Shown here: positions 8,520-49,611 of the stretch, piece after piece
Position numbering within the stretch: position 1 is the stretch's first letter
How the letters are laid out: each line of letters starts with the position of its first letter
Source of the DNA: Nitrospira sp.
Lineage (GTDB): Bacteria; Nitrospirota; Nitrospiria; Nitrospirales; Nitrospiraceae
Assembly: GCA_005116745.1 (NCBI GenBank)
Contig: SWDS01000007.1
Span: 128,587-192,586, forward strand
Reading direction: 5' to 3'
DNA length: 64,000 nt
The notes under the pieces: model-generated
The model's database searches: none
What the model was told of the DNA's origin: nothing
What the model saw: the letters and a program-made list of their open reading frames with translations, nothing else
Program-made: the position numbers and the translations under genes

Positions 8520-9296
8520 ATGGAACAGGCCATTCATCCGCTCGCCTCCCACATCCAAGGCGTCAAGAGACGACTGATCATCATTGGTGCGACGGTCTTG
8601 GGTGCGCTGGTGCTGACCTTCTCTTTTTCCGCTGAAATGGTGGCATGGCTCAACCGGCCCTTTTCAAACCAACTGGCTTTTTATGGCCCAACGGAGGCGC
8701 TGTTCGCTTCGATCAAGGTGTCGTTGTTGGCAGCCCTCATTCTCAGTTTGCCGGTCATTTTCTATCAGTGTTGGAAGTTTATCGAGCCCGCTCTGTTGCA
8801 GAAAGAACAGCGCTGGGCGATCCCGTTATTCATGGTGGCTGGGGGGCTGTTCGCGGTAGGGCTGGTCTTCTGCAATGTCGTGATTTTGCCGCTCGTGATC
8901 GATCTGTTCGTGAGTTTCGGACTCGATCGTGATATCACTCCGCAGCTGAGCGTGGGTACCTATATTGATTTTAACGTGAAATTTCTTCTCATCTTTGGCT
9001 GTGCGTTTGAGCTACCCTTAATCATGAGTCTTGTGGCAATGACTGGAGTGGTATCAGCGGACATGTTCGCTCGATACCGCAAACATGCCATTTTGTTGTG
9101 TCTCATTGTCTCTGCCATCGTGACTCCTGATGCCACGCTCTTTACCATGCTGTTGATGGCGGTTCCGCTGATGACGCTGTATGAGATCGGGATTCTCGGC
9201 GCTCGAATTTTCGGGCGAAAGCCGGACTCAGGGGGGATCGATTTGCCGCTTGACCCGGATCTGCCGATGAATACCGCTGGAACGAGGCTACGATGA
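8520..9296 (+). CDS. tatC: Sec-independent protein translocase TatC
   Basis: A 258-residue inner-membrane protein with six predicted transmembrane helices. The first helix follows an amphipathic N-terminus (HPLASHIQGVKRRL), and the core motifs YQCWKFIEPAL and FGCAFELPLI are TatC signatures. It recognises twin-arginine signal peptides and forms the folded-protein translocase with TatA/TatB, which are not in this window. Its stop overlaps the start of the next gene as ATGA. Confidence 0.95.
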   Translation: MEQAIHPLASHIQGVKRRLIIIGATVLGALVLTFSFSAEMVAWLNRPFSNQLAFYGPTEALFASIKVSLLAALILSLPVIFYQCWKFIEPALLQKEQRWAIPLFMVAGGLFAVGLVFCNVVILPLVIDLFVSFGLDRDITPQLSVGTYIDFNVKFLLIFGCAFELPLIMSLVAMTGVVSADMFARYRKHAILLCLIVSAIVTPDATLFTMLLMAVPLMTLYEIGILGARIFGRKPDSGGIDLPLDPDLPMNTAGTRLR

Positions 9297-10372
9297 GGCA
9301 TCGGACTGTAAAGGCTCCGTGCATTCGCACGATGGTCTCTGTGATCGCAATGTGGGGTGCTTTTTTCTGCCTGGGCGGCGGGGAGAGTCTCCAGGCTTCC
9401 GATCCGCTGAGGATTGCAGAGACTTCGACGGCCTCGGGGCCATCTGAACAATCTGCAGCCAGCGTGCAGGCTCTTGTGATAGGGAGCGATGGAATTCTCT
9501 ATGCCGGATCCTTCGGGCATGGGATTTTTCGAACCGTGGATCGAGGCGCGACGTGGGCTCCAGTAGGGGGTGGCATCACTGATCCATTTATCTTGAGTTT
9601 GGCCTCCGCGAAAGACGGAGCCGTCTATGCCGGTACGTTTCGTGGTGGAGTGTTTCGCTCACGAGACAAAGGGAACAGCTGGCAGCCGGTGAATGTGGGG
9701 CTCAAACGGCTTGAGGTCAAGTCCTTATTAGTGGTGGACCACGATCTGTTTGCCGGTACTGGAGATGGCGTGTATCGCCTGCATGGCTCCGAGGATCGTT
9801 GGACGCCTGTGACGTCTGGGTTAGACGATATTCTCGTTCATGCACTCGCTCGCTCTGCCGATGGAACCTTATTCGCAGGGACTTCCGGTCAAGGTCTCTT
9901 TCGGTTTAGCCCTCGCTCTACTGGTTGGGTACGCATGCGGCATGGATTGAAGGACCATGAAGGAATGATCGAAAATTTCATTCGTGTTCTCGTCATCGAT
10001 CAGGATCAAAGTATTTTGGCTGGCACGTTCGACGGCGGAGTCTTTCGTAGTACCGACGGCGGACTCACGTGGCGACCAATCAGCCGGGCCCTGCCTAACG
10101 ACTCTATCCGGGGTGTTGTATTCAGTGACGAAGGAGTCGTCGTGGCAACCGGGAATGGAATTTTTAAGACCATCGATAAGGGCAAGCAATGGATTCCCCT
10201 CAATAAGGGCCTGACGAGCCTTGCGGTGCAAGTGTTGATCGGATCGGGTGATAAAGGTCTCTACGCGGGGACGAGTTCCGGGGTGTTTCGTAGCGACGAT
10301 GGCGCCTCCTGGATAGCCGTCAATCAGGGGTTGGAGGTAGGAATCGCGCCCCCGCCATTTCTCTTTCGCTAA
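9293..10372 (+). CDS. Exported beta-propeller protein with BNR/YCF48-like repeats
   Basis: This 359-residue protein has a probable N-terminal signal sequence (VSVIAMWGAFFCLGGGESLQA). About seven repeats follow of the form LYAGTFGGGVFRSTDGGxTWxPVxxGL, spaced roughly 40-45 residues apart, which should fold as a beta-propeller of the photosynthesis-stability/sortilin/BNR type. Such proteins act as periplasmic or surface scaffolds. No catalytic residues are evident. The start overlaps tatC by 4 bases, so the two are translationally coupled. Confidence 0.82.
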   Translation: MRHRTVKAPCIRTMVSVIAMWGAFFCLGGGESLQASDPLRIAETSTASGPSEQSAASVQALVIGSDGILYAGSFGHGIFRTVDRGATWAPVGGGITDPFILSLASAKDGAVYAGTFRGGVFRSRDKGNSWQPVNVGLKRLEVKSLLVVDHDLFAGTGDGVYRLHGSEDRWTPVTSGLDDILVHALARSADGTLFAGTSGQGLFRFSPRSTGWVRMRHGLKDHEGMIENFIRVLVIDQDQSILAGTFDGGVFRSTDGGLTWRPISRALPNDSIRGVVFSDEGVVVATGNGIFKTIDKGKQWIPLNKGLTSLAVQVLIGSGDKGLYAGTSSGVFRSDDGASWIAVNQGLEVGIAPPPFLFR

Positions 10373-10392
10373 ACTTAGAAAGGACGACTGTA

Positions 10393-10905
10393 ATGGCTGA
10401 GATAGGCGAGAAAATACGGGCAACAATAGCCGTGACAAGTAAGGGACAACCCATGGGAGAAATCGTACTCAGGTTTTTCTCGGATGTGGCGCCTGGTCAC
10501 GTTAATAACTTTATGAAGCTTTCCAAGGATGGGTTTTACAATGGGACGACGTTTCACCGTGTTATTCCTGGGTTTATGATTCAGGGAGGGGATCCCAACA
10601 GTAAGAATTCAGACCGGTCATCCCACGGAATGGGTGGACCTGGTCATAAAGTAAAGGCGGAGTTTAATAGTACGCCACACAAGCGAGGTATTGTCTCGAT
10701 GGCCCGTTCGAACGATCCGGATAGCGCTGGATCACAGTTCTTTATTTGTGTCGCAGATGCCAATTTTCTCGATTGGCAATACACGGCCTTTGGGGAGGTG
10801 GTCAGCGGAATGGAGGTAGCCGATAAGATTGTCACGATGAAGCGTGACGGGCAAGACAATCCGCTGGAGCGAGCCGAGATGACCGTCACGATCAGTGAGG
10901 GGTAA
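10393..10905 (+). CDS. Cyclophilin-type peptidyl-prolyl cis-trans isomerase
   Basis: A 170-residue cyclophilin that catalyses proline isomerisation during folding. The core FHRVIPGFMIQGGDP, FSMARSNDPDSAGSQFFI-type segment (here VSMARSND) and the F..TAFGEVV motif are typical, and the catalytic Arg of FHRV is present. No signal peptide is visible, so it is probably cytoplasmic (PpiB-like). AAAGGA lies upstream of the ATG at 10393. It is 20 bases after the propeller gene. Confidence 0.93.
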   Translation: MAEIGEKIRATIAVTSKGQPMGEIVLRFFSDVAPGHVNNFMKLSKDGFYNGTTFHRVIPGFMIQGGDPNSKNSDRSSHGMGGPGHKVKAEFNSTPHKRGIVSMARSNDPDSAGSQFFICVADANFLDWQYTAFGEVVSGMEVADKIVTMKRDGQDNPLERAEMTVTISEG

Positions 10906-40891: not shown

Positions 40892-41257
40892 TTACGTGTT
40901 AGAGCCCCGTCCGTACTTATCTAAGAGGGTTTGAAGGTCTTCAGGAATGGGCATGGGCTGAAACGGAGAGACCCGCGCCCCGCCAGTATTGCCTATCGGC
41001 ACCCACATTCGTGAGAACAGCAGAGCTCCCAGGATCCGAAACAGTTGACCGGAAATTTCTACGCAATCTCGACGTCTCCAACCAACCTTCAGCATCCACC
41101 AGTGTGTCCGCGCATGGGCAACCGAAAATGATTGTCCTAAGATGTGTGCCCGCTCGAGATGGGAAAATGCCTGGTCCAGTGCATCCGCATGATATCGCTC
41201 CACTGCCGCCTTCATCTCGGCACAATAGGCTTGTTGCAAGACCGGATGCATGTTCAT
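40892..41257 (-). CDS. DUF3703 domain protein
   Basis: A 121-residue protein. The first ~100 residues (AYCAEMKAAVERYHADALDQ, HLERAHILGQ, HARTHWWMLKVGWRRRDCVE) match DUF3703, a family of unknown function often near metal-resistance genes. It lies just left of the island boundary and so was originally downstream of the tRNA gene. Confidence 0.75.
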   Translation of the reverse strand: MNMHPVLQQAYCAEMKAAVERYHADALDQAFSHLERAHILGQSFSVAHARTHWWMLKVGWRRRDCVEISGQLFRILGALLFSRMWVPIGNTGGARVSPFQPMPIPEDLQTLLDKYGRGSNT

Positions 41258-41904: not shown

Positions 41905-43455
41905 TCAATAGGGAATGACGGACTTCTTATATTGCTCGGCGGTCCGATTCACGCAAAAGCAGAACAGCGCGCCCTCCAGTTTCATCCAGAGGAGTGGGAA
42001 TTTGTACGGGCGTCTGAGCAGTTTCGATACTGCCCGCTCACCATAATGGAGCAGCGCAAAGCGTCTTGCCGTTTTCACTTGCATGGTGGTATTCCACCAG
42101 CGCACAAGCGGCCACAATCTGACCTCCAGGCTGCTTAGGAGATGCTGCTGGACCAGCGAGGCAAAGAAGGACCGGCGCAAGCCCTCACCGTAGGGCACGG
42201 CGGGATGGCAAAAGAGGACCACGGACCCTAGTTTCGACTGACCAAAGAGCTGTCTCGGCACGCCCGCCTCTTCCGCGATGCGTCGAGGGATCGGGCGATC
42301 ATATTTTGTCCACATGCGCCAGGGGTTCATCTCGGGTGATTCGGTCATCGCCAGAATATCCGCTTTCCGTCGTGCGCCGATATAGGGCAGTGGGAGATGG
42401 ATCAATCCTACGACCAGCCGCCATTCAGACAGGCCATGTCCTCCAAGATCCCACCGCCGAATGTCCGTATCGACGTGGGCGCGGTCTCCTGAAGTCGATC
42501 GTGGATACCAAATCTCTCCGAGTGTCCCGGTCAGCAAGAGACTCACCGTCGAAACATGCGGTTTGACGCCCAACAAATTGGCGTCCTGCGAGAGATGCAG
42601 GGCCGTGTAGAAGAGCGATTCATCGTCAAAGTTTCGGGTGTAGACATCGCGAGCAAGCTGCGTATAGCGCAGCCCCAGCACGTCACAAATGGCGCTCCCA
42701 TCATCATCCTGGAGTGGGCCAGTCTGTTGGTGGGCCAGATGCGCGGTACTCTTGGCCTGTGTCACGGTAAACACACGGTCAATCCCATAGGGTGCGGCGA
42801 GGGCATTGACGGCGGTGGAGTCATAGCCCTTTGACTGGGTGGAGAGGATCGGCAAGGGCCACGTCCGCGCCCCATCGCGGGCATTGGCGACGATGCTGGC
42901 GTACCGCTCGCGGAGATACTGTCTATAGTCCTCAAAGTGATGAAAGCGCGGCGGCATCCGCTTCTCGGTTTCCAGGATCTTGTCACTGGAGACCTCAAGA
43001 TTGCGATACATCAGCCGGCGCACGCTGCCCTTCACGGTCTGCATCTCCCGTTGGTAATCGTTCAGACCGTTCATAATGGAATCGCAGGCCCTCGCGTAGG
43101 TCCGGCACTGTAGGGGATCGAGGCGATCATTAATCGTTGTCAGCAAGAGTGGGAGAGAATTGGAGACGGTCACGCGCTCCGCTTCAGTCCTATAATAGAG
43201 GTAGTCGGTCGTGGAGGCGCTACTGACGAAGCGCACGGACTCACCGGTCATCCTGCCACCGGTCCCAAACACACAGTCCGTCTCTCCGAAGTCGCCCTTC
43301 TCGAAAGGTCCATCCCACACGCCTTCGATCCAGAGGGAGTCACGGACTTCGACCTTCGCGCCGTGACGGAGCGTCACGATGCCGTTTACCTTGTCAACAA
43401 CAGCGACCCAGGCCAGTTGCGGGAGTGAGGGATGGCAATGTGTGGTGAGGCGCAT
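41905..43455 (-). CDS. Asparagine-synthase-like PP-loop protein without glutaminase cysteine
   Basis: A 516-residue protein. Residues about 200-225 hold a PP-loop of the asparagine synthase type, STQSKGYDSTAVNALA, where Lys replaces the second Gly of SGGxDS. The N-terminal half looks like a degenerate Ntn-glutaminase fold (SNSLPLLLTTINDRLDP) but begins MRLTTHC, not with the catalytic Cys2. So ammonia-dependent or non-amidating adenylation chemistry is likely; related proteins occur in surface-polysaccharide and peptide-modification clusters. The product is unknown. It is the left-most cargo gene of the island, on the minus strand with no neighbour close by. Confidence 0.65.
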   Translation of the reverse strand: MRLTTHCHPSLPQLAWVAVVDKVNGIVTLRHGAKVEVRDSLWIEGVWDGPFEKGDFGETDCVFGTGGRMTGESVRFVSSASTTDYLYYRTEAERVTVSNSLPLLLTTINDRLDPLQCRTYARACDSIMNGLNDYQREMQTVKGSVRRLMYRNLEVSSDKILETEKRMPPRFHHFEDYRQYLRERYASIVANARDGARTWPLPILSTQSKGYDSTAVNALAAPYGIDRVFTVTQAKSTAHLAHQQTGPLQDDDGSAICDVLGLRYTQLARDVYTRNFDDESLFYTALHLSQDANLLGVKPHVSTVSLLLTGTLGEIWYPRSTSGDRAHVDTDIRRWDLGGHGLSEWRLVVGLIHLPLPYIGARRKADILAMTESPEMNPWRMWTKYDRPIPRRIAEEAGVPRQLFGQSKLGSVVLFCHPAVPYGEGLRRSFFASLVQQHLLSSLEVRLWPLVRWWNTTMQVKTARRFALLHYGERAVSKLLRRPYKFPLLWMKLEGALFCFCVNRTAEQYKKSVIPY

Positions 43456-43979: not shown

Positions 43980-44681
43980 CTACGCCCCCTCATGATTCTG
44001 GCCACCGCGCACACACCAGACGTGGGCGACGTTGACCTTATTGCTGTTGGCCACGGAGCCAGTTAATAAATGCCCCAACCACGCAACTGTAGGATCTTCC
44101 GCATTTGTCGTCGCCGACCAATAGTCGGCAGACCCGACAGTCAGAAACGGCTGGCCCGACTGGAGGGTCGGGCCTGGGGGAGGTACGGAGGGGTGCGCCA
44201 GGCTCGCCAGTTCGTGCACCGAGGGCAGCCGCCAGCCTTTGCGGTTGCCGGTCGTGCGGGCTGTGCATTCGCCCCGCACCTGAAACAGAACGAGCAGCAG
44301 GGCAATGACGTCAAACACCGCCATGCTCAGAGCAAAGTAGTCCGGGTAGTGCTCCACACCACCCACCAGGTAGGGAAACAGGAACACCGGTAGAGCGCCC
44401 AGCGGATATTCTGGCTGAAAGTCCACGTAAGGAGCGCCTCCAGCTCCCTAGAGCTGGGCGGAGGTTCGGTATATGCCTACGTCGAAGCCAGAACCCCATC
44501 CGGCGTAGTAGACCTGGAGCAACCGCACGATCGCCCAGAAAATCAGGCTCGCAGCCACCAAGAGCGGCGCTTGTGATGTGGCGGATCGAAGCCGTGGACA
44601 TGCCAGAACTGATCGCTCAGAAAGGTGGCGATAATTTGCCGACACCGGCGTTGTGGTCAAAGCATTTTTTCGTGACACCAT
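43980..44681 (-). pseudogene. Chimeric pseudogene: GT87/DUF2029-like membrane protein fused to DUF1566 fragment
   Basis: One minus-strand frame contains the start of a DUF2029/GT87-type membrane glycosyltransferase (LLVAASLIFWAIVRLLQV, then GWGSGFDVGIYRTSAQL), an in-frame TAG at 44448-44450, and its continuation (VDFQPEYPLGALPVFLFPYL). Near 44268-44285 it switches in frame to a DUF1566 C-terminus (GNRKGWRLPSVHELASLAHP, YWSATTNAEDPTVAW, VWCVRGG). The TAG would be TGG (Trp) in an intact gene. The combination of nonsense codon and deletion fusion marks it as dead. Start coordinate is approximate. Confidence 0.65.
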
Positions 44682-44805
44682 TGACGTTGATTGTTTCGCG
44701 TCAGGCCATATGGTTTGCGTCTTATCACAGGCGTCTGCTACCCTCGGCTCCGCTGCGTATCTCTGGTTGGATCTCTGTCTCAGCCTCAAGAAAAACGGTA
44801 CGGAT

Positions 44806-46266
44806 ATGACGAAGGTGGACGCTAGACTGCGTATGATGGACTGGGTCGTACCGCTTGGATTCGGGACGATTCTGTTCTTTGCGGTGCCTTTGCAAACGGC
44901 TCTGGAATTGAGTTGGGATGAGGGATACGAGCTGATGAAGGCACTACTTGTGAGCCGCGGCTATGCTCTCTACCTCACCGTATGGAGCGATCAACCTCCG
45001 GTCTTCACTGAGCTCCTGGCCCTGCTTTTCCGCGTTTTTGGAGCATCCGCTTTCGTCGGTCGGCTGCTGACCCTCTGTTTTGCCATGACCCTCGTGTGGA
45101 TGTTATGGAAGCTCGTCAGCAACAGCTTCGGATTAGCAGCCGGTCTGATCGCGACAGCATTGCTGGTGTCGTCCTCATCATTTCTTGAACAGAGCGTCGC
45201 GCCCATGACCGAGCTGCCGGCAACGACGCTGGCTCTCGCGTCATTACTATCAGCCTCACGCTACAACTCCACGCGCAGAATGCGGTGGCTTGCGCTTTCG
45301 GGCGTGCTATTCGGTTGCGCATTGCAAGTGAAACTTACCAGTGCGATCTTTCTGCCGGCGATGGGTGTGGCATACCTGGACAGGAATGGCCGGAATCTTC
45401 GCACCGACCTTCTCCGCGACGTTGCGGTTTGGTTCGGAGCGGTCCTCGTGACGTGGGGCCTCATCGTCCTGAGGTTCTACGGAACGGATACCGTGTGGGA
45501 GTTCTGGGCGTCTCACTTCTCCGGATCGACGAACGCCGCTGTGCCCGACAAGCACACATTCAAGCCCGCTGCATTTTTCTTGCGTGCACCATCGCTATCG
45601 GCTGCGACCGCATTGGGCATTGCGTTGCTCGCCTCGAAACGCCGACGGGACGTGTTGTGTCCGGCCACGTTGTTTGCCACCGTGCTGGCGATCCATTGGG
45701 CACACCGGCCTTACTGGTATTACTACAACCTGCATTTCGCCATCCCGATGGCCTGGTTGGGAGCGTCAGGTATTGTCGGCTGGTTCGGGTTGCTCCGAGA
45801 TCGAGCCGCGGCTTGGGGGGAGCGCAGGTCTCTGAACCGATTGGCTTGGCTCGTCTACGTGCTTGTGATCTCCCTGACGCTGGCATACACTCCTCGGCAC
45901 ATATGGAGCCACATGCGGGGGTTACAGACTGCTCCTCTCGCGAGTGAGAATGAACTGGTTGTCGCGTTGCGAAAGCGGGCCTCGAGCACAAGCTGGGTAT
46001 TCGCCGATCGACCGCTCTATCCATTCTGGGCAGGGCTGCTGGTGCCACCCGAAATGTCAGGGATTCCGTACAAGCGTATCTGGTCGGGCAGTGTTACGGA
46101 GTCAACAGTGTACCAATGCATCGCACAATACAGGCCTGAGGAGATCCTGTTTATCTACACCCTCTCTGGCTGGGAAACCAGAGAGGCGTTGGCGGCGTAT
46201 ATTCGGGATCATTATGAGCACGATCCTGCTGGGGGCGGCACAAAGCTGTTTCATCGAACGCACTGA
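44806..46266 (+). CDS. GT39/ArnT-like integral membrane glycosyltransferase
   Basis: A 486-residue protein with about ten hydrophobic helices. The first periplasmic loop has LSWDEGYELMKALLVSRGYA and then WSDQPPVFTELLALLFRVFG, the acidic motif and PP segment of PMT/ArnT-type enzymes that use polyprenyl-phosphate sugars. It would glycosylate lipid, glycan or protein on the periplasmic side. ATG 44806 is taken; the open frame extends to 44653 without family support. It could use the lipid-linked sugar made by the GT2-GtrA fusion at 48472 in the same island. Confidence 0.78.
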   Translation: MTKVDARLRMMDWVVPLGFGTILFFAVPLQTALELSWDEGYELMKALLVSRGYALYLTVWSDQPPVFTELLALLFRVFGASAFVGRLLTLCFAMTLVWMLWKLVSNSFGLAAGLIATALLVSSSSFLEQSVAPMTELPATTLALASLLSASRYNSTRRMRWLALSGVLFGCALQVKLTSAIFLPAMGVAYLDRNGRNLRTDLLRDVAVWFGAVLVTWGLIVLRFYGTDTVWEFWASHFSGSTNAAVPDKHTFKPAAFFLRAPSLSAATALGIALLASKRRRDVLCPATLFATVLAIHWAHRPYWYYYNLHFAIPMAWLGASGIVGWFGLLRDRAAAWGERRSLNRLAWLVYVLVISLTLAYTPRHIWSHMRGLQTAPLASENELVVALRKRASSTSWVFADRPLYPFWAGLLVPPEMSGIPYKRIWSGSVTESTVYQCIAQYRPEEILFIYTLSGWETREALAAYIRDHYEHDPAGGGTKLFHRTH

Positions 46267-46701: not shown

Positions 46702-47037
46702 TTATGTCCCTTCGGGTAATTTCAGTCCTTTGAGCTCGAAGACTTGTTTTAACACGTCCGCTTCCAGCGCTTTCCGTCCTAGCGCCCGCTCCAACTCCTC
46801 GACACACTTCCGCAAGCCCAGCACCTGACTCTTGGGAACCATGTCGCCCGATTCCTTGAGCCCCTGAGCCAGGCCGCGCTTCCAGCTGTACATCCACGCG
46901 GCATTCACCGCATACTTCCGACAGATCTCCTCGAGCGGGATCCCCGTCTGCCACTCCTGCAACACTGCCAGCCTCTGCTCACTACTCCACCGCCGCCGCC
47001 CACGCCCAGTTTGGACCGGTTTCATCACAGTGTCCAT
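46702..47037 (-). mobile_element. IS3-type transposase orfA, element remnant
   Basis: A 111-residue HTH protein (RRRWSSEQRLAVLQEWQTGI, then LEEICRKYAVNAAWMYSWKR) ending in the leucine-zipper-like helix typical of IS3 OrfA (CVEELERALGRKALEADVLK). The catalytic orfB that should follow on this strand is absent, so transposition is not possible from this copy. The sequence TGAGCCCCCCACTTAAATTG upstream (about 47060-47079, minus strand) may be its outer end. Confidence 0.7.
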
Positions 47038-47083
47038 TAAGCCCTCTCGCTTATGAGACATGTCTACAATTTAAGTGGGGGGC

Positions 47084-48475
47084 TCAACACCCTTTCTTTC
47101 TTCTGTGGCTGGACACGCGTCCTTCCGTCAAGAGAGGTGGCGCATTACCTTCTTCACGACCATCCAGACTAGTCAATAACAGCTCGGCCATCCGGTTGCC
47201 GTCACGCACGGCATAGTTTGTACCGCGATCCATAGGAAAGATTTGCGAGAAATTGCACAAGTAAACGCCTGGGCAAGGGGTGTTGTGTGGGAGGAGCTTT
47301 GCCTCCTCGAAGCCGATGTCGACGATGTGCTGTGCGTGACGTAATCGAAACAGCGCATCGTCCACAACCAACGTCGGATCGAACTCGGGGAAGATCTTCT
47401 GCAGCTCCTGGTACCAGAGCCGCTTCAGTTCCCCCGCATCCATCGACATGTACTTGTGCTCAGAAGGCACATAGTCGCCGATGTAATACACGTTGAGTCC
47501 GCCGAACTTTTCACTCCCGACGAGATTCGTCAGGCTCAGAAAGACCACAAACGGCGAGTTAGGCGTATTGATGTTGTGCCAATAATACGGCGTGAACTTC
47601 TGCCGTGTTGCGAATACCTGTACGCAGGCATCCAGATAGTCGATGCTCCGCAAGCGATTGAAGTATGCAGGATCATTTCCTTCGTAACCGGCAATCAATT
47701 TCGCGAACACGCTGCTCGGAACCGTTGCCAAAACACGGTCGAAGCGTTCTTCACCAGATGCGGTTTCGACCACCACCTGACCATTCTCATTCTTCAGGCT
47801 CGAAACTCTCGTGCTCAGGCGTAAATCGACGCCCTGCAGCCGCTGCATCAATGCATCGATGATTACTTTGAAGCCGCCATCTGCGTAGCCAAGCGCTTCG
47901 CCACCAGCCTCGGCGTCCCTGCTATCGACGCGCTGTTTGATGCGTCCCCACAACCAGGACATCGTGACCTTGTCGTAGTAGCGGTCAAACTTGCCACGTA
48001 GCAGCGGTTCCCAAATCACATCGGTGACCCGGCTGCCGGCCCACCTACGCAGCCAATTGAGCGCAGTAACGCGACTGAGTCGCCGCCAGTTCTGTACACG
48101 CTGGAGCGCTAACACCGTTACTCCCGCGCGGATCCGATCAACAAAGCTGAGGGGTGTAAACTTAATGAGATCGATTGGCGTCATCATCGGGTAGAGGACG
48201 TCGCCGTAATAGGTCGAAACAGAAGAAGGGAAATATTTCAGTTTCGGGCCTAATCCGAGTTCATCAATCAGATCGAGGATATATTCATCTGTTTTGTACA
48301 AAAAATGGTAGGCTTTCTCCACCGGGAATCCCGCCAATGTAAATCCGGATGCAAGGCCACCGACATCCGGCGATGCCTCGTAAATTGTCACATCACAGCC
48401 TGATTGAATCAACCGATACGCGGTAGTTAAGCCCGTCAGTCCCCCACCGATGATGCCGATCCGAGGCCTGATCAC
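47084..48475 (-). CDS. FAD-dependent amine-oxidase-like oxidoreductase
   Basis: A 463-residue flavoprotein of the protoporphyrinogen/amine oxidase-like group: IGIIGGGLTGLTTAYRLIQSG (FAD motif, residues 6-26), DVTIYEASPDVGGLASGF, and C-terminal VYLCNFSQIFPMDRGTNYAVRDG. Relatives are found beside GT2 and GtrA genes in surface-polysaccharide clusters and may oxidise or isomerise a sugar or lipid carrier. Its start overlaps the end of the GT2-GtrA gene by 4 bases, so they are coupled. The exact reaction is unknown. Confidence 0.82.
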   Translation of the reverse strand: MIRPRIGIIGGGLTGLTTAYRLIQSGCDVTIYEASPDVGGLASGFTLAGFPVEKAYHFLYKTDEYILDLIDELGLGPKLKYFPSSVSTYYGDVLYPMMTPIDLIKFTPLSFVDRIRAGVTVLALQRVQNWRRLSRVTALNWLRRWAGSRVTDVIWEPLLRGKFDRYYDKVTMSWLWGRIKQRVDSRDAEAGGEALGYADGGFKVIIDALMQRLQGVDLRLSTRVSSLKNENGQVVVETASGEERFDRVLATVPSSVFAKLIAGYEGNDPAYFNRLRSIDYLDACVQVFATRQKFTPYYWHNINTPNSPFVVFLSLTNLVGSEKFGGLNVYYIGDYVPSEHKYMSMDAGELKRLWYQELQKIFPEFDPTLVVDDALFRLRHAQHIVDIGFEEAKLLPHNTPCPGVYLCNFSQIFPMDRGTNYAVRDGNRMAELLLTSLDGREEGNAPPLLTEGRVSSHRRKKGC

Positions 48476-49611
48476 TCGGCGACTCCGGCTGAATCTGAAT
48501 CAACCACCGAAGTCTTTTTGAACGTAATGCGTGAATTGAGGAAATATTGCAAAACAAATACTACCGGGAGTGAAAGGATTTTCCCAAAATTAGCGCCGAG
48601 TCCGATCGACCTGCAAAGTTCGATGATGCCGTAACCAGCCGCGTATCCGATTGTCGCGACAATGGCGAACGAGGTCAAACGCCATACGATGTGGTCTACC
48701 GTGTGAAAGTTATGGCGGGCGTTGAGGGTAAAGCTGAACAAGACGGACGTCGGTACCGAGATCGAGTGCGCCATCAGCGGCGTGGTGTGGGCGACGTTGA
48801 ACAACACCATAAACAATGCGACGTCGATTGCGGATGCAGTTGCGCCGATCACGAAGTACTTCACCAAATGTTTGGCCATCCAGGGGAACCGAAACTGATA
48901 CAGTCGCCAGAGATGCTGTAGATAATAGAGCTGTTGCTGAAAGGTCAGTTTGCTTTCGCCTCTTGTTCGATCCAAAAAAGTGATAGGTATTTCGATCACC
49001 CTTTGGCAATTCCCTTTGACGAGGATCTCTAGCCCGATCTTGTAGCCTAACGGCATGAGTGGTGGTGCTGCTTCTAGGATTCGCCGTGGGAAGGCAAAAA
49101 ACCCAGCCATTGGATCTTTAATGTCGGTCAGTCCTCTCGCGAGAAGGGTTGCGACCTGTGAATTCAACCAGCGAAATACTCCCCATGTTGCATCGGTGGC
49201 GCCACCTTCCACATATCGCGAACCAACCACAAAATCGGCGCCCTCTCGAAGGTGCTGAAGGAATCGAGGAATGTCTTCGGGAGGATGGGACAGATCAGCA
49301 TCCATGACGAGCACATACGCACTTCGTGATTCCCGAATCCCATGGATCACCGCACTCGACAGCCCCCGATTGGAAAACCTGGTGATAAGCCTCATCGGAT
49401 AGTCCACTGACAGTTCCTTGCAGACTTTGTCTGTCCCGTCTTGGGAATTGTCATCGACTACGATAATTTCTGCGCTAATGCCGGCCCCGTTCACAGCGTC
49501 ATGTATTCGCCTAGTAAGTTCGGGGAGGTTATCGACCTCGCGATAAGTTGGGACTATAACCACCAACTCGGCAAATATCTTGGTCCGGGGTGTATTCAAT
49601 TCACCCACCAT
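48472..49611 (-). CDS. GT2 polyprenyl-phosphate glycosyltransferase fused to GtrA domain
   Basis: A 379-residue fusion. Residues 1-235 are a DPM1-type GT2 domain (VVIVPTYREVDNLPEL, IIVVDDNSQDGT, VMDADLSHPPEDIP). Residues 255-365 form four helices of a GtrA flippase-like domain (KYFVIGATASAIDVALFMVLF, NARHNFHT). It would build a lipid-phosphate sugar and help move it across the membrane. It leads the minus-strand pair with the FAD oxidoreductase. Promoter lies in 49612-49845. Confidence 0.88.
   Translation of the reverse strand: MVGELNTPRTKIFAELVVIVPTYREVDNLPELTRRIHDAVNGAGISAEIIVVDDNSQDGTDKVCKELSVDYPMRLITRFSNRGLSSAVIHGIRESRSAYVLVMDADLSHPPEDIPRFLQHLREGADFVVGSRYVEGGATDATWGVFRWLNSQVATLLARGLTDIKDPMAGFFAFPRRILEAAPPLMPLGYKIGLEILVKGNCQRVIEIPITFLDRTRGESKLTFQQQLYYLQHLWRLYQFRFPWMAKHLVKYFVIGATASAIDVALFMVLFNVAHTTPLMAHSISVPTSVLFSFTLNARHNFHTVDHIVWRLTSFAIVATIGYAAGYGIIELCRSIGLGANFGKILSLPVVFVLQYFLNSRITFKKTSVVDSDSAGVAE

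Follow-up and report, generated by a model that had tools for sequence, protein, structure and literature searches.

A predicted asparagine-synthetase-fold protein family without the glutaminase cysteine in Nitrospira and other bacteria, with a possible role in surface-glycan amide formation

Enzymes of the asparagine-synthetase superfamily use a PP-loop domain to adenylate a carboxylate, after which a nitrogen nucleophile attacks the acyl-AMP. Beta-lactam and carbapenam synthetases, whose substrates are of the carboxyethylarginine and carboxymethylproline types, have retained the N-terminal domain although it is not a glutaminase, and they work with a catalytic Tyr-Glu dyad. The base in the known enzymes is the Glu or Tyr at the place of AsnB Glu348 and beta-lactam synthetase Tyr348, two positions that we take to be equivalent. 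To our knowledge, the glutaminase-dead AsnB relatives described so far are these two synthetases, and they make antibiotic rings.

Other members of the superfamily act on glycans, hydroxamates and peptides. Uronamides of surface glycans are made by WbpS, an AsnB-type enzyme (PMC7468200); in Bordetella, a glycan locus that includes an asparagine-synthase gene leads to a glycan carrying two uronamides (PMC12407052). TsnB9 is a hydroxyamidotransferase that moves the hydroxamic acid moiety of glutamyl hydroxamate (PMC13418202). Lasso peptide cyclase and the PesC nitrile synthetase are RiPP enzymes of the asparagine-synthetase-like kind, with the same superfamily chemistry and treated as PF00733, and PesC can take ammonia in place of glutamine (PMC13060819).

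The protein compared with these systems is encoded in a window of 64,000 nucleotides, the whole stretch of Nitrospira sp. DNA that was analysed. An initial annotation had read it as an asparagine-synthase relative with a PP-loop and a degenerate glutaminase half. To this we add structural support for the dead Ntn domain, the spread of the family, a signature, and links to gene neighbourhoods.

The gene and its predicted two-domain fold

The features of the gene are as follows.

41905..43455, minus strand: family-member open reading frame (P0001), 516 aa, ATG start, stop included
42952..43455, minus strand: predicted N-terminal domain of glutaminase-type (class II Ntn) fold without the catalytic Cys, residues 1-168, from a separate model
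43414..43416, minus strand: codon of Leu14, at the place of the catalytic N-terminal Cys according to structure alignments and the 80-member alignment
41908..42951, minus strand: predicted C-terminal ATP-pyrophosphatase (synthetase) domain, residues 169-516, from structure matches
42817..42840, minus strand: PP-loop TQSKGYDS, residues 206-213, aligned by hhalign with LSGGxDS of AsnB
42508..42531, minus strand: second ATP-site motif TGTLGEIW, residues 309-316, aligning with SGDGGDE of an AsnB-type protein, with Asp replaced by Glu here
42232..42300, minus strand: signature segment DRPIPRRIAEEAGVPRQLFGQSK, residues 386-408, in which R391, R392 and F404 never vary and K408 is present in 79 of 80 members

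Judged from sequence, the open reading frame is a genuine gene and not a chance one, because the genome holds 3 family copies and because, in an 80-member alignment (79 locus ORFs of 440-600 aa with E under 1e-40, plus the window protein), it has the prevailing residue at 38 of 38 positions whose conservation among the other 79 reaches 93% or more. Its start Met is common to several aligned homologues, and its N-terminus reads MRLTTH. A chance or mis-framed ORF is ruled out by the conservation across the family.

The 516-aa protein has no match in Pfam or NCBIfam (the latter searched up to E = 10), be it to PF00733 Asn_synthase, TIGR01536, TIGR03108 or the lasso cyclase model NF033535, and a PDB sequence search gives noise only. 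In this it is unlike the lasso cyclase and other RiPP enzymes, which fall in PF00733, and unlike AsnB, ASNS and the WbpS/TIGR03108 group. PF00733 reaches 1 of the 80 members scanned singly, at E = 0.027, and none of its 8 places in the whole genome is a family copy. At the PP-loop the 80-member profile picks up NAD synthetase, QueC and GMP synthase with E = 0.12 to 0.16, a level at which an unrelated match also appears. Sequence tools alone would thus leave the gene as a "hypothetical protein". Nor did the Pfam, NCBIfam and PDB sequence searches find a close homologue of unrelated function, which the initial annotation had named as evidence that would count against it. The family is so far unnamed and is missed by Pfam and NCBIfam; no paper describing it was found in the literature searched, a search whose silence is not proof, as subscription papers were mostly outside its reach.

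The AlphaFold2 model of the window protein, built on the 80-member alignment, has a mean pLDDT of 94.7 and a pTM of 0.93. Foldseek places beta-lactam synthetase at the top (E = 1.1e-12), together with carbapenam synthetase, AsnB, human ASNS and TsnB9, and all 23 of its 23 matches under E = 0.001 belong to the asparagine-synthetase-like superfamily. VIA-align gives Z = 17.0 to beta-lactam synthetase (1m1z; rmsd 3.9, 349 residues), 16.5 to AsnB (1ct9; rmsd 4.6, 364 residues), 16.3 to TsnB9 (7ylz; rmsd 3.7, 348 residues) and 15.4 to carbapenam synthetase (1q19; rmsd 4.1, 367 residues), within a set of 12 superfamily rows scoring Z = 15.0-17.0 over 338-373 residues. With the first 7 rows tied, all within 1 Z, the nearest relative cannot be picked out from the model. 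Superfamily matches cover the model from residue 13 or 14 to residues 502-511, whereas the best match outside the superfamily, NAD synthetase, scores Z = 7.7 over residues 172-414.

A two-domain asparagine-synthetase fold, an Ntn domain followed by a PP-loop domain, is therefore well supported by the model, and the ATP-pyrophosphatase fold, whose absence would have told against the initial annotation, is present in it. The likeness to the beta-lactam and carbapenam synthetases runs over residues 13-508 and extends to the inactive Ntn domain in the structure alignments; for all that, identity to them in these alignments is 11-14%, sequence searches find neither enzyme, and no gene context of the beta-lactam kind was noticed. 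A plain PP-loop protein of the NadE, GuaA, LarE or QueC kind was considered and rejected: the structure matches listed, to NadE, GuaA and LarE, span residues 166-414 at most with Z no higher than 7.7, and the profile matches proteins of this kind weakly, at E = 0.12 or above.

Modelled alone, the N-terminal domain reaches a pLDDT of 95.4. VIA-align finds its best score to TsnB9 (Z = 11.2, rmsd 2.9, 146 residues), followed by beta-lactam synthetase (10.3), ASNS (9.0), AsnB (8.7), PurF (8.2), EgtC (7.9) and GlmS (7.6), and the class II Ntn fold accounts for the first 46 of the best 50 structure rows listed, from Z = 11.2 to 5.5. Foldseek is weak for this domain by itself, with a best E of 2.6e-3 and nothing under 0.001.

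The first aligned pair in the N-domain alignments joins residue 14 to residue 1 of 1ct9, 6gq3, 1ecb and 1xff, and to residue 2 of 7ylz, 4zfl and 6r4f. The enzymes whose residue 1 or 2 pairs with Leu14 are AsnB, ASNS, PurF, GlmS, GFAT-1, EgtC and TsnB9, and in all of them we take that residue to be the catalytic Cys. Because Leu14 stands at its place, the nucleophile is absent; among the 80 members position 14 is Leu in 73, Met in 4, Phe in 1 and a gap in 2, and a 13-residue extension with an extra strand precedes it. This sets the family apart from AsnB, ASNS and WbpS/TIGR03108, and from TsnB9, which starts MCG and keeps its Cys. On the model, the glutaminase half looks like a structural relic. 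The initial annotation, which had found no Cys at position 2 and had suspected a degenerate glutaminase fold, is borne out on both points, with position 14 as the place to compare.

The ATP site and the family signature

The PP-loop is kept. Of the residues of STQSKGYDS (205-213), Ser208, Gly210 and Asp212 never vary among the 80 aligned members, so that the Ser and Asp whose conservation had been in question are both invariant, and residue 213 is Ser or Thr in 74 of the 80. The first Gly of the SGGxDS pattern of AsnB, ASNS and WbpS/TIGR03108 is mostly lost, replaced chiefly by S, K, R or T.

The match to known enzymes in sequence comes from profile alignment. hhalign pairs STQSKGYDS with LSGGIDS, and LLTGTLGE with ALSGDGGDE. 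Against 7 canonical AsnB-type proteins it gives a probability of 81.2 over residues 201-321, and against the set of asparagine-synthetase-like neighbours 97.3 (E = 1.9e-11) over residues 21-386, while the controls, a reversed decoy and 6 unrelated neighbour families, score 0.2 to 1.2. Together with the modelled two-domain fold, the invariant PP-loop supports the reading of the protein as an asparagine-synthase relative.

Other positions of the site vary more. Position 314, which presumably binds Mg in AsnB and beta-lactam synthetase, has D in 58 of the 80 members, E in 9 including the window protein, and G in 9; it is other than Asp in 22 (one of these a gap), and Thr or Ala in some close paralogues, which counts against an active amide synthetase. 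Y385, P388, R391, R392 and F404 are kept in 80 of 80 members, and K408 and E344 in 79 each. K408 would correspond to the Lys that is catalytic in AsnB and beta-lactam synthetase, an equivalence that, like that of E344, we infer, as K408 lies outside the hhalign spans and E344 does not fall on a conserved Glu. The position aligned with AsnB Glu348, which we presume corresponds to Tyr348 of beta-lactam synthetase, is not conserved, being Thr in the window protein and Tyr in 15 of 80 members; this is a probable difference from the beta-lactam and carbapenam synthetases, and it too counts against an amide synthetase. The ATP site is well supported; activity and substrate we infer.

Copies, spread and gene neighbourhoods

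The genome, which looks Nitrospira-like by its family relatives in the tree, has three copies: the one in the window, another intact one on contig C2, and one on contig C8 that is interrupted. The interrupted copy (L028, around 9114-10659; C8:121113-122643) is broken into separate open frames. In the phylum survey, 7 of 295 genomes have a family match, all 7 within one of 135 genera; scoring took in 5 candidates per genome at most, which makes the paralogue numbers minimum values. In one scan of the species-genome collection with 2 peptide patterns, 126 of 141 pattern-matching stretches encode relatives, and the best 80 matches, amounting to 79 loci, were kept. The 5 loci without a family ORF over 250 aa are left outside the 74 used for neighbourhood counts. 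The window and all loci together hold 101 family ORFs, and alignment A6 leaves out 4 of the 80 members (L069, L093, L097 and L102). A plasmid search found no plasmid relatives.

Phylum labels in the 84-row tree number 11, and they change 25 times against a minimum possible of 10, which fits a patchy, exchanged accessory gene, a pattern that paralogues and mis-binned contigs can mimic. It is a tree of the quick kind, in which the fork holding the window protein is open and the long branches L064, L072 and L097 are unsure. The window protein joins a 12-row clade (100*) of Nitrospira rows and one contig labelled Nitrosospira (L042), which is probably a mis-binned Nitrospira contig because its neighbours match those of Nitrospira loci L034 and L035.

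Two close family genes on the same strand, mostly adjoining or overlapping, occur in L047, L050, L070, L076, L088, L097, L103, L106 and L107, and the PP-loop is kept by both copies in the 7 loci where both were aligned. Such pairs may form a heterodimer or make two successive amide bonds.

Pfam families were tallied for 131 of 144 eligible same-strand neighbours and for 140 of 150 listed distant genes on either strand, so that the two tallies differ in gene number and in strand rule. On that footing, GATase_7 is found 13 times near and 3 times far, and Asn_synthase 10 times near and 2 times far. PylC-like_N and ATP-grasp_3 each occur 6 times near, and ATP-grasp families at most 2 times among the distant genes, outside the top 25 listed there. 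PALP (5) and FemAB (4) are also among the near genes, and glycosyltransferase group 1 is alike near and far, with 6 and 7. From these tallies, the wider surroundings are often polysaccharide loci and the amide-bond enzymes stand closest.

Counted by locus, an asparagine-synthetase-like gene lies within 3 genes in 17 of 74 loci, an ATP-grasp gene in 16, and either in 30; at 7 or more genes away the figures are 7 and 2 of the 55 loci reaching so far, an enrichment that is inflated, since genes known to lie close to family members served as seeds for the neighbour models, and that compares near and far stretches holding unequal numbers of genes. The 44 loci of 74 with neither kind within 3 genes count against a role in glycan amides, as do L082 and L089, where members lie among genes that look housekeeping by eye. 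A co-directional neighbour less than 100 bp away is found in 48 of 74 loci, tandem family copies included. Of the neighbour proteins, 20, most of them first named by eye or similarity, were checked and their names borne out.

Particular arrangements recur. In L018, L021 and L031, three loci of the Nitrospira group, the gene directly before the family gene encodes a TupA-type ATP-grasp protein; the own genome gave no match to TupA, and neither did the control genomes, so its absence there is not shown. In Bacillota and one Bacteroidota locus, a sugar transferase, a PALP-type PLP enzyme, 1-2 family genes and a PylC-like ATP-grasp stand together; the nearest NCBIfam models of the PLP enzyme are CuyA and D-cysteine desulfhydrase, both below cut-off.

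Neighbours of the asparagine-synthetase-like kind lie in L039 (three of them), L040, L018, L070 and L066; several of these match glutamine-amidotransferase models weakly or in part, and they are possibly further glutaminase-poor enzymes. In L016 (339-1178), a 279-aa ORF beside the family gene starts ILWTGGWDSTFRVLYA, which is PP-loop-like, and has a partial Pfam match to QueC (E = 2.9e-5).

The initial annotation had the window copy alone among surface-glycan genes. Glycan-related genes do lie 1.2 to 6.2 kb from it, but it stands outside any operon and is not part of a glycan operon, so that context cannot tell its substrate.

44653-46266, strand opposite to the window copy: PMT_2-type gene, glycan-related
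47084-48475: FAD amine oxidase, glycan-related
48472-49611: GT2/GtrA gene, glycan-related

Between the PMT_2-type gene and the FAD and GT2 genes is an HTH_Tnp_1 transposase ORF (46702-47061). The window copy itself is flanked by a DUF3703 protein (40892-41257) and an Lcl_C-domain ORF (43980-44426), with no evident link to it.

Proposed reaction and competing readings

We propose, at about an even chance of being right, that the protein is an AMP-forming amide synthetase of asparagine-synthetase architecture that activates a carboxylate, most likely on a surface glycan or its precursor, with ammonia or an amine in place of glutamine. The initial annotation had likewise suggested that such proteins may adenylate a carboxylate to form an amide or a ring in the absence of glutamine, and the predicted fold and the conserved PP-loop support this suggestion. 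ATP and Mg would bind at the PP-loop, and the substrate carboxylate would be adenylated with release of PPi. As the glutaminase is lost, the nucleophile must come from elsewhere, and the acyl-AMP would be attacked by free ammonia or an amino-bearing small molecule instead of glutamine-derived ammonia. In many members the carboxylate would be that of a surface-polysaccharide sugar acid or its amino-acid decoration, and the adjoining ATP-grasp and asparagine-synthetase-like enzymes would make companion amide bonds. AsnB, ASNS and the WbpS group resemble the window protein in fold, in the aligned PP-loop and SGxxGD motifs and in the surface-glycan setting. The precedents of WbpS and the Bordetella uronamides are the reason that we hold a glycan-carboxylate amide synthetase the likeliest of the readings weighed, evenly balanced as our belief in it is.

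Rather unlikely, in our estimate, is a small-molecule synthetase like beta-lactam or carbapenam synthetase, closing a ring or joining secondary-metabolite parts, with the glycan association incidental and, in Nitrospira, with a GntA-type heme N-hydroxylase acting on a guanidine compound. Foldseek ranks beta-lactam synthetase first and VIA-align has it in the tie for first place, and a gene order is kept in four Nitrospira loci:

L019:9018-12205: family gene, then YqcI/YcgG, then DUF1989
L020:8961-12135: the same three genes
L032:1358-4546: the same three genes
L033:4824-8011: the same three genes

YqcI/YcgG is confirmed by Pfam in all four, and DUF1989 in L019, L032 and L033, the L020 gene having been found by similarity; the L032 protein is UAAP2-like, below cut-off. 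In the tree L019 can hardly be told from L033, and the two may come from one species. The YqcI/YcgG neighbour in L020, the one scored, passes the NCBIfam GntA cut-off with 269 against 145 bits, and enzymes of this kind are heme guanidine N-hydroxylases (PMC12866846). Against this stand the many other loci whose readable context is polysaccharide-like, the non-conserved Glu348 position described above, and the window genome itself, in which no GntA match was found (the control matched 2 of 14 genomes, none over cut-off). The stand-alone window copy is the hardest case for choosing among readings, because it lacks both a GntA match in its genome and neighbours that point to a function.

Less probable still is a uronamide synthetase that depends on ammonia or is fed by a partner, a two-subunit system in which an adjoining glutaminase-active protein of asparagine-synthetase type supplies the ammonia. 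WbpS is a precedent for the product, and contig C2 of the own genome (L027) offers a possible partner, since one strand there encodes an ABC transporter, glycosyltransferases, the intact second family copy and two asparagine-synthetase-like genes, one a canonical AsnB-type with an MCGIAG start and one degenerate. Against it, an asparagine-synthetase-like neighbour lies within 3 genes in only 17 of 74 loci, and the Pfam scan of genes neighbouring the window copy found none. We consider it improbable that the protein is a pseudoenzyme, in which the fold survives as a regulatory or glycan-binding scaffold while turnover has gone, in the Nitrospira clade if not elsewhere; there Glu, Ala, Thr or Asp occupies the second acidic place of the ATP site, and one of 3 genome copies is interrupted. 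Against a pseudoenzyme, the PP-loop residues and K408 are kept as given above and the window protein agrees at every conserved position.

The glycan-carboxylate amide synthetase reading can be extended, tentatively and with more doubt than belief, to a separate glutamine-independent AsnB-fold family that joins amines or amino acids to the sugar carboxylates of surface glycans alongside ATP-grasp ligases, and of which a member, in one Nitrospira lineage, was recruited together with an N-hydroxylase of GntA type and a DUF1989 protein to a pathway of three genes leading to an N-hydroxylated guanidine amide. The profile, with the signature SxGYDS, TGxxGDxxW, YDRPIxRR and FGxxK, allows genes to be annotated that at present escape Pfam and NCBIfam. 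If the reading is true, the same loss of the glutaminase that serves antibiotic ring formation would be used for glycan chemistry, in a family scattered over many phyla, and amide-linked glycan decorations, detectable by mass spectrometry, would be expected in Nitrospira, Marinobacter, Pelovirga and Bacillota.
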